NCBI GenBank assembly: GCA_020403045.1
Contig: JADBYK010000072.1
Location: forward strand, 1-51,573
Direction: 5' to 3'
DNA: 51,573 nucleotides
Origin: Cytophagales bacterium
GTDB taxonomy: Bacteria > Bacteroidota > Bacteroidia > Cytophagales > Cyclobacteriaceae
Under the pieces are notes generated by a model. The model did not search any database, was not told the DNA's origin, and was given only the letters and a program-made list of their open reading frames with translations. A program made the position numbers and the translations under genes. Numbering within the stretch: the stretch's first letter is position 1; each line of letters starts with the position of its first letter. Positions 50,385-51,573 of the stretch are shown one piece after another.

Positions 50385-50474
<90 letters not shown>

Positions 50475-50585
50475 TGATTAGTATCTTAATCTTTATCAGG
50501 TTTAGGTATCAGTTTAATAGAACGTAAGATTGAATGATCTTTGACATGTTGGTCTCGTAGCTCAGCTGGATAGAGCAACTGCCTT

Positions 50586-51227
50586 TAACAAATAGGAGCC
50601 TTTGTTCAAAAACAAAAAATGGACAAAGTGGATGGTGCTGTATCGGTGAACCCTTCGTCAATTTTGTAAATTGGCATGGCAATACCGAGGAAATTTTCGG
50701 TCTTATTATTTTAAATATGAAAAAACATCATATTAAGAATAAAGGAGACTTAGGAGTATTAAAGGCTCAAGCTGATTTGTGCTCAAAAGGCTTTCTGGTT
50801 TGTTTGCCTTTGTCTGAGCATTCTCCCTTTGATCTGGTTATTTATCAAAATGGCAAATTCAAAAGAGTGCAAGTTAAGGCAAGAAGCCTAAATAGAGGAA
50901 GCCTTTCTGTAAGATTTGAGCATAGTTATTCCGATAGCAAAGGAGTACACACAACAAAAGTCGATATAGATTCAGTAGATGTTTATTGCATCTATTGTAT
51001 TGATAACGATGAGTGTTACTACTTCAACGCGAAGGAATTCAGTAAAAATAGCACAGTAAGTTTGAGGGTAGATACCCCAAAAAATAGTCAAGGCCAAAAC
51101 ATAAATTGGGCTAAAGACTATCGGGAAGTTCCGTAGAGACTATACGCATCACACCTGAAATCGGTGAAGATATAGTCCAGACCACGAACCCCAGTCCAAA
51201 GGGGGCGATGAAAATCGAAGTGGTAAG
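50586..51227 (+). ncRNA. Group I self-splicing intron
   Basis: 642 bases. The guide UAGGAG (50593-50598) pairs with the joined exons: GAG with CUU of exon 1 (P1, with the expected G-U pair at the 5' splice site) and UAG with CUA of exon 2 (P10). The last intron base is G (51227). P3 is UGGUGC (50633-50638) with GCAUCA (51146-51151); P7 is GACTATA (51138-51144) with TATAGTC (51171-51177) within the familiar AAGATATAGTCC; P8 is CACC/GGTG (51152-51155, 51163-51166). P5 and P6 hairpins lie near 50660-50700, and P9 hairpins near 51190-51225. The endonuclease gene occupies the P6-P7 side. Confidence 0.92.
50717..51136 (+). CDS. Group I intron PD-(D/E)XK homing endonuclease
   Basis: 139 residues. 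KGDLGVLKAQADLCSKGF, then PFDLVIY (Asp39) and KRVQVKARS (Gln52 and Lys54) form the PD-(D/E)XK core, with Q-x-K as in I-Ssp6803I, the cyanobacterial tRNA-intron enzyme. A NINWAKDYRE tail is also typical. It would cut intron-less tRNA-Arg genes and so spread the intron. The residue where relatives usually have Glu (GE in KGD-GE) appears to be Val14, so activity is uncertain. The stop lies two bases before the P7 strand, so the gene is embedded in the ribozyme. Confidence 0.88.
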   Translation: MKKHHIKNKGDLGVLKAQADLCSKGFLVCLPLSEHSPFDLVIYQNGKFKRVQVKARSLNRGSLSVRFEHSYSDSKGVHTTKVDIDSVDVYCIYCIDNDECYYFNAKEFSKNSTVSLRVDTPKNSQGQNINWAKDYREVP

Positions 51228-51266
51228 CTAAGCAGTAGGTCGCTGGTTCGAATCCAGCCGGGATCA

Positions 51267-51367: not shown

Positions 51368-51428
51368 CGGGGTGTAGCGTAGCCCGGTATCGCGTGGCGC
51401 TTTTGGCGCCAAGGTCGCAGATACGAAT
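51368..51428 (+). repeat. tRNA-Pro-like truncated repeat, copy 1
   Basis: The first 60 bases follow a Bacteroidota tRNA-Pro body: CGGGGTG, GTAGCGTAGCCCGGTATCGC D-arm, anticodon stem TGGCG/CGCCA and AGGTCGCAGA. The loop CTTTTGG would put TTT at the anticodon position. The T-loop reads TACGAAT and there is no pairing T-stem or 3' acceptor strand, so it cannot be a normal tRNA. Confidence 0.75.
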
Positions 51429-51445
51429 CTAGGTTAAAGAAAATT

Positions 51446-51504
51446 CGGGGTGTAGCGTAGCCCGGTATCGCGTGGCGCTTTTGGCGCAAAGGTCGCAGAT
51501 ACGA
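51446..51504 (+). repeat. tRNA-Pro-like truncated repeat, copy 2
   Basis: Nearly identical to copy 1 over about 59 bases, with CGCAAAGG in place of CGCCAAGG, which breaks the anticodon stem. Lies 78 bases after copy 1. Also without 3' acceptor. Confidence 0.75.
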
Positions 51505-51542
51505 AACGAGCTAGAGTATTTTGAAATTGTGAGTAGTAAATT

Positions 51543-51573
51543 CGGGGTGTAGCGTAGCCCGGTATCGCGTGGC
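51543..51573 (+). repeat. tRNA-Pro-like repeat, copy 3, cut by window end
   Basis: The first 31 bases match copies 1 and 2 exactly. The rest is outside the window, so this one might be a complete tRNA or another truncated copy. Confidence 0.7.

Follow-up and report, generated by a model that had tools for sequence, protein, structure and literature searches.

A putatively mobile group I intron in the anticodon loop of tRNA-Arg(UCU), and related endonucleases at the same tRNA in Bacteroidota, Bacilli and phages

How does a bacterium read AGA codons if the only gene detected for the tRNA concerned is interrupted within its anticodon? The question is raised by a 51,573-nucleotide stretch of a Cytophagales bacterium (assembly GCA_020403045.1, contig JADBYK010000072.1; hereafter the window), in which a tRNA-Arg(UCU) gene is broken between U34 and C35 and its halves lie 642 nt apart. 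The answer in which we place high confidence is that the insert is a mobile group I intron, which would be spliced out of the transcript and would spread by means of the homing endonuclease it encodes. The parts of the locus, in window coordinates, are as follows.

50551..50585, forward strand: 5' exon of tRNA-Arg(UCU), ending at U34; identified by identity to the intronless 5' half in genus-mates and by ARAGORN
50586..51227, forward strand: group I intron of 642 nt with terminal G at 51227; identified by homologous introns, empty sites and covariation
50717..51136, forward strand: homing endonuclease gene, 139 amino acids (aa), PD-(D/E)XK type (PF11645), in the P6 loop
51228..51266, forward strand: 3' exon of tRNA-Arg(UCU), from C35 to the discriminator base A at 51266

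When the flanks in 50551-51266 were joined by script, ARAGORN returned tRNA-Arg(tct) of 75 bases, as expected from the original prediction that the exons join to a clean tRNA. That prediction had also proposed a comparison with intron-less relatives. Of the 62 genomes of the genus, 29 gave a readable tRNA-Arg(UCU) locus: 26 have it intact and intronless, and three carry the intron. The exons of the three intron-bearing genomes are base-for-base identical to the intronless genes of G011 and G041 (genomes are denoted by G and loci by L), and the window with its intron removed aligns to the intronless locus L050 at 82% over 444 alignment columns. The insert thus lies in a conserved gene whose empty site is known.

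The insert has the paired elements of a group I intron, which are listed here with the number of pairs that vary on both sides.

50593..50598, forward strand: guide UAGGAG; P1 forms between GAG and exon CUU (U.G at the splice site), and P10, by eye, between UAG and the CUA of exon 2
50600..50628, forward strand: P2 hairpin; both sides vary in 8 of 8 counted pairs
50633..50638, forward strand: P3 5' strand, partner 51146-51151; both sides vary in 6 of 6 pairs
50644..50687, forward strand: P4 (50644-50647 with 50684-50687) and P5 domain; RNAalifold prediction
50689..50692, forward strand: P6 5' strand, partner 51129-51132, which is also codons near the end of the open reading frame (ORF)
51138..51142, forward strand: P7 5' strand GACUA, partner 51173-51177; both sides vary in 2 of 5 pairs
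51146..51151, forward strand: P3 3' strand; covariation
51152..51166, forward strand: P8 hairpin; both sides vary in 3 of 4 pairs
51173..51177, forward strand: P7 3' strand UAGUC; covariation

Covariation was scored in 20 of 38 tRNA-Arg(UCU) introns from Bacteroidota and Bacilli, a set that omits near copies, longer introns and most further ORF-bearing introns. In these 20 homologous introns 96.5% of structure cells are paired, compared with 33-41% when the partners are slid (96.5% and 34-44% in a set of seven), a comparison that favors the structure because it was partly derived from the sequences tested. Both sides change in 24 of 41 pairs; the shuffle mean is 11.9 and the observed value was reached in none of 500 shuffles, a margin to which kinship alone can contribute. 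RNAalifold proposed P1, P2, P3, P4, P5, P6 and P8 unprompted from seven ORF-less cores, and P7 was entered by hand as a pseudoknot, replacing a small local RNAalifold hairpin at its 5' strand. P4 and P5 are little variable (both sides vary in 1 of 4 and 0 of 2 pairs, respectively), as is the inner P6 (0 of 4 pairs, 90% paired). The extended P6 varies on both sides in 3 of 11 pairs (seven introns), and a hairpin close to the 3' end of the intron does so in 4 of 4. No P1 pair varies on both sides, and the splice-site U.G is present in 20 of 20 introns; the terminal G was found in 12 of 12. Covariation among homologous introns supports the group I core, including the P3/P7 pseudoknot. The guide pairing with CUU and, by eye, with CUA, the U.G at the splice site, P3, P7, P8 and the terminal G are present as the original prediction described, and its assignment of a group I intron to this anticodon loop is borne out by exon joining, empty sites and covariation.

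The ORF in the P6 loop is intact. It ends with a UAG stop between P6 and P7, and its final codons also serve as the 3' strand of P6. The product matches PF11645 (PDDEXK_5) with 118.1 bits (E 3.8e-34, cut-off 26.1) and contains a motif, (P)FD...QVK, which we take to be the nuclease site; all 22 sequences compared have D39, Q52 and K54. When the Protein Data Bank (PDB) was queried with this protein sequence alone, nothing was found. Profile searches reached I-Ssp6803I (PDB 2ost) at E 0.051 and then at E 3.6e-5, and 2ost is also the best structural match, with 19-26% identity to its chains in structural alignments. The modeled protein has the I-Ssp6803I fold, in agreement with the original prediction of a PD-(D/E)XK enzyme of this type; it is a PDDEXK protein and not a GIY-YIG one. 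A first structure model, built from six sequences, was poor (predicted local distance difference test, pLDDT, 41.6) and was discarded. The ratio of nonsynonymous to synonymous substitutions (dN/dS) between the window gene and that of L034 is ~0.10, synonymous divergence (dS) from L041 being close to saturation; judged from this ratio, the endonuclease is under purifying selection. The window protein and its viral relatives L091 and L092 all match phrog_5018.

Structure and homology suggest how such an element would work. The primary transcript would fold via P1-P9 and use guanosine for the cut after U34, and U34 would then be joined to C35, so that the mature tRNA would still read AGA. In other tRNA-Arg(UCU) genes, where the DNA of the anticodon arm is uninterrupted, the 139-aa enzyme would cut that arm, and the intron would spread when the break is repaired from the copy that carries it.

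The endonuclease was found in 3 of 96 related genomes searched, the window's own included, and a profile of it matched 8 of 395 Bacteroidota genomes, two of the matches being weak. All six strong matches, and four of five relatives from named genomes (L034-L037), are intact ORFs inside a tRNA-Arg(UCU) intron; in the fifth relative (L038) the ORF is broken. A weak relative in G377 (L080, L133) sits in a tRNA-fMet intron. Plasmids held no relative at E 0.001. The intron itself is more widespread. With a covariance model that was built from tRNA-Arg(UCU) introns and covers their 3' half but no exon sequence, 36 matches were obtained in 27 of 395 Bacteroidota genomes and 24 in 23 of 299 Bacilli genomes, both searches being run with stricter filters that lose weak matches. 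Within the genus, 3 of 62 genomes matched. Host tRNAs were read at the 30 Bacteroidota and 20 Bacilli loci available (six and four matches, respectively, came without loci). The Bacteroidota hosts are tRNA-Arg(UCU) in 13 cases, tRNA-fMet in 10, tRNA-Leu(UAA) in six and tRNA-Lys(UUU) in one, whereas the Bacilli hosts are tRNA-Arg(UCU) in all 20, each split as CTT|CTAA. The script used left four loci without a tRNA and mis-set L130, L137 and L141; L126, L129, L130, L137, L142 and L144 were assigned to tRNA-Leu(UAA) and L141 to tRNA-Arg(UCU) by eye, L130 and L141 on re-reading.

Only two of the 20 Bacilli loci, L146 (identical with L036) and L159, have a full-length ORF. Seven of the other 18 Bacilli introns retain relics of it (start and end, or the end, with the middle gone; E <=0.001 in a database of 24 introns), and none of five ORF-less Bacteroidota introns does. 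The relic-bearing introns look like a decay stage of the homing cycle. At L147 (G630) two intron-split tRNA-Arg(UCU) genes are neighbors; one has its ORF deleted, and the other has a long ORF and a host tRNA with a damaged T arm. The tRNA-Lys(UUU) intron (L145:1264-1609) is a group I intron that splits CTT|TTAA in the Bacteroidota genome G372, which also carries a tRNA-fMet intron (L139). The intron at L078:1347-2008, which holds one of the six strong endonuclease matches, has apparently moved to 36|37 (CTTCT|AA), with its guide altered as if it moved together with the splice site.

A scan of viral contigs gave 21 relatives of the endonuclease, and all 21 lie within or adjoining tRNA-Arg(UCU); the tRNA of L088, called Pyl(cta) by ARAGORN, was taken as Arg(UCU) by eye, and the matches L100, L101 and L102 are partial. 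They occur in three arrangements. One relative, L091, is in a group I intron in tRNA-Arg(UCU). Three of nine proteins scanned on its contig match phage families, including a major head protein and an integrase, and a second intron, in tRNA-Leu(UAA), scores above the cut-off of the Rfam group I model RF00028. Twelve, including the three partial ones, are free-standing ORFs beside an intact tRNA-Arg(UCU), downstream of it in L082-L090, L100 and L101 and upstream in L102. The remaining eight (L092-L099) belong to a cassette, 568 bp long in the three measured, that consists of a whole tRNA-Arg(UCU) and the ORF and lies inside the anticodon loop of another tRNA-Arg(UCU). Their proteins form three groups and therefore do not represent eight separate events. 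The flanking tRNA halves vary by locus; by eye, they still pair in L098 (ACTGC/GCAGT) and L099 (ATTGC/GCAAT) and pair incompletely in L092 and L095. No group I core was seen in the eight cassette loci, and the intron model found no match in the whole records G793 (L092) and G794 (L096). The carried tRNA is bounded by an inverted repeat, AGAACAACC / GGTTGTTCT, which differs in its last base in L099.

Among phage records the endonuclease matched 30, of which 28 are at 26-34% identity. In Cyanophage Sf-FR1, a Synechococcus phage, the cassette lies between a left-half remnant and tRNA-Val, and in Acinetobacter phage Herod a free-standing ORF adjoins tRNA-Arg(UCU). Mycobacterium phage Wilder (L105), the only one of the 28 opened, has a relative by tRNA-Gly, and a distant relative occurs in the haloarchaeal Haloarcula tailed virus 2. 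Phage tRNA-Leu(UAA) genes have introns at the loci L168 (1346-1600) and L167, the hosts being read by eye. The L168 intron passes RF00028 and by eye appears to contain an HNH-like ORF; only the intron model detected the one in L167.

Whether the window intron must be spliced depends on the other tRNA-Arg genes of the genome. A tRNA search gave 35 matches, and ARAGORN, run on 30 loci and on the stretches around the other five (some of these without a clear call), reported Arg anticodons CCT, CCG and ACG and no second TCT. The joined tRNA-Arg(UCU), used as a DNA query of the same genome, had no further full copy among the matches listed. The second gene that the original prediction wished to have sought is thus not found in a tRNA list that has gaps. 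In 32 mechanical ORFs of at least 200 aa, taken from both strands of the window and possibly including spurious ones, AGA accounts for 131 of the 580 Arg codons. Since no second UCU tRNA was detected, splicing is probably essential for reading AGA. DNA searches of Bacillus sp. FJAT-14578 and Priestia abyssalis likewise found tRNA-Arg(UCU) halves and no full-length copy. One tRNA-like gene of the window's genome (G000:C48:114813-114887; L042:114-189) is given a four-letter anticodon, gaag, by ARAGORN.

Several observations weigh against a functional intron or would suit a dead one in a pseudogene, with AGA read by a second, unseen tRNA-Arg(UCU). The assembly, although 98.96% complete, is split into 124 contigs, and tRNAs are missing from its list (no whole tRNA-Pro(UGG), for example), so a second tRNA-Arg(UCU) could also sit in a gap. 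ARAGORN run without introns missed the split gene and reported only the adjoining tRNA-Ser(GCU). The middle one of the three P10 pairs of the window intron is missing, by eye, in L037 and L038, the ORF of L038 is broken, and the second intron copy of L147 is in a damaged tRNA. RF00028 gave no match at the window intron when the window, its 3' half and the whole genome were searched, the genome giving three weak matches elsewhere (E 0.8-4.3). The original prediction had counted the lack of such a match as refuting a group I intron. The RF00028 cut-off is a detection threshold, not a structural definition, and only 7 of the 20 intron loci searched at it passed. Of six ORF-less tRNA-Arg(UCU) introns, L138 scores 57.3 bits (cut-off 50), L148 24.7, L150 18.3 and L165 17.4, and L122 and L124 give nothing. 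Because these ORF-less siblings score low, and because L138, in the same tRNA and at the identical site, passes, the missing match does not refute the assignment. L138 is the bridge to the known group I family; the miss may be partly due to the ORF in the P6 loop, yet the ORF-less siblings score low as well. Exons that match intact copies, an intact core, an ORF that is intact and apparently under purifying selection, and the failure to find a second UCU tRNA here or a full-length copy in the two Bacillaceae genomes make a dead intron highly improbable, and we rejected it.

The other alternatives concern what the insert and its protein do. The phage loci show that the same endonuclease family can split tRNA-Arg(UCU) without a visible group I core, as it does in eight cases, and the window insert might likewise be an endonuclease cassette and not a ribozyme. 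The full covarying core is present in the window insert, which brings no replacement tRNA; the phage cassettes show the reverse, and this reading was rejected as extremely improbable. The protein might also have lost homing and serve as a maturase or in another host function; strong purifying selection is expected for a maturase too. Many siblings keep the core without an ORF, and the presumed nuclease-site residues are invariant in all 22 sequences; this reading too was rejected, as very improbable. A further possibility, compatible with a mobile intron, is that the intron is real and needs a host protein, being unable to self-splice. The short P8 and long P6 loop could indicate this, and some group I introns are known to depend on proteins (PMC7717549). 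The core is complete, however, and the group I intron in Bartonella tRNA-Arg(CCU) self-splices in vitro (PMC7717549), and we regard a need for a host protein as unlikely. The mobile intron described above remains the preferred explanation.

In a tree of the enzymes, those carried by introns, bacterial and phage alike, group together (support 94/97, just under the program's mark), and within this group the Bacillaceae enzymes fall among those of Bacteroidota. The remaining enzymes are free-standing, and the cassette enzymes nest among them (99/100). The tree is rooted arbitrarily at its midpoint, 10 of its 22 inner branches are drawn open, and the row for L103 is labeled free although this locus bears a cassette. 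The tree fits movement of the endonuclease between Bacteroidota, Bacilli and phages, with no direction of transfer implied.

The targets were compared over 29 bases. Eleven invaded sites share 22-29 of these with the window target, and six carried or neighboring phage tRNAs share 12-20, the comparison being made without the neighbors of L083, L087, L089, L090 and L100-L102. The anticodon arm region of the cassette's carried tRNA has diverged from the target, with 15 of 29 bases shared. These values lend only partial support to the idea that phages protect themselves by carrying a diverged tRNA, the two ranges nearly touching. By its distribution, in phages as well as in two bacterial phyla, the enzyme lineage is shown to specialize on the tRNA-Arg(UCU) anticodon arm, although the viral search began from a tRNA-Arg enzyme and so favored tRNA-Arg neighbors. 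The simplest reading of the sequences would be one enzyme family aimed at this arm and tolerated in three ways. A bolder proposal, toward which we lean slightly, is that this PD-(D/E)XK lineage is a parasite specialized on the tRNA-Arg(UCU) anticodon arm and persists in this vital gene through three tolerance devices: a ribozyme that heals the interrupted tRNA (bacteria and one phage), a position beside the phage's own divergent tRNA copy, and the 568-bp cassette, which breaks its target but brings a replacement tRNA-Arg(UCU). The cassette would then represent a novel class of mobile element, a tRNA-replacing homing cassette, and the three forms would be a natural record of an intron acquiring a mobile endonuclease.

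Mobile group I introns are already known from tRNA genes. In the portion of a 2007 table available to us, the Synechocystis tRNA-fMet enzyme is the only PD-(D/E)XK entry, with the figures 655 and 150, taken as the lengths of intron and ORF (PMC1995217). That intron with I-Ssp6803I is likewise a tRNA group I intron with a PD-(D/E)XK enzyme and provides the closest solved structure. The window type differs in its host tRNA-Arg(UCU), its position between U34 and C35, its occurrence in Bacteroidota and Bacilli, and the low identity of the protein noted above. The alphaproteobacterial tRNA-Arg(CCU) introns of Agrobacterium and Bartonella are also group I introns in an Arg tRNA that were missed by annotation, and BbgpI of Bartonella splices in vivo as well as in vitro (PMC7717549). 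Their anticodon differs, the sections of that source used here mention no endonuclease, and the CCT repeats described there suggest a different insertion point, as judged by the description (PMC7717549). The tRNA-Leu(UAA) and tRNA-fMet introns, which were likewise detected in Bacteroidota by the tRNA-Arg(UCU)-based model, have other host tRNAs and lower scores with that model, and several pass RF00028. In the account of tRNAscan-SE 2.0, as far as it was available, group I introns explain missing fMet or Ile2 tRNAs in 36 genomes (PMC8450103).

For phages, SegB is described in the excerpted source as an endonuclease that acts beside and on phage tRNA genes and cuts in them (PMC13096335). Its gene too lies beside phage tRNAs, but it is a GIY-YIG enzyme, whereas the phage relatives reported here are PD-(D/E)XK proteins by tRNA-Arg(UCU). 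A 2014 statement, seen in excerpt, that phage group I introns occur only in protein-coding genes (PMC3984707) is called into question by the phage tRNA introns found here. The relation between intron-borne and free-standing forms also has a counterpart. Bonocora and Shub (2009) and Zeng (2009) reportedly found one cut site shared by a free-standing phage endonuclease and an intron-borne gene elsewhere; the present system differs in its tRNA-Arg(UCU) target, its PD-(D/E)XK enzymes and the third, tRNA-carrying form.

The original prediction considered the combination new or rarely described. It is not rare in nature, being present in many Bacteroidota and Bacilli; a search of titles and abstracts, with tRNA-gene databases outside its scope, found no description of the tRNA-Arg(UCU) group I intron, its breadth or the tRNA-carrying phage cassette. 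A tRNA needed for a common codon is split in two phyla by an element that both ARAGORN and Rfam missed in the window, and intron-bearing genomes may seem to be without tRNA-Arg(UCU). With one target and three enzyme forms (intron-borne, free-standing and tRNA-carrying), it becomes directly testable how mobile introns arise, decay and are transferred.

The split gene has other tRNA genes as neighbors.

50385..50474, forward strand: adjoining tRNA-Ser(GCU); ARAGORN

The tRNAs Ser(GCU), Arg(UCU) and Pro(UGG) lie side by side in 21 of the 26 intronless genus-mate loci. In the window, the region 51368-51573 holds tRNA-Pro(UGG)-like copies, two of them truncated (from 51368 and 51446) and a third starting at the contig end, inside which the contig breaks off. 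The close relative L034 has one truncated tRNA-Pro(UGG) copy followed by an intact tRNA-Pro(UGG).
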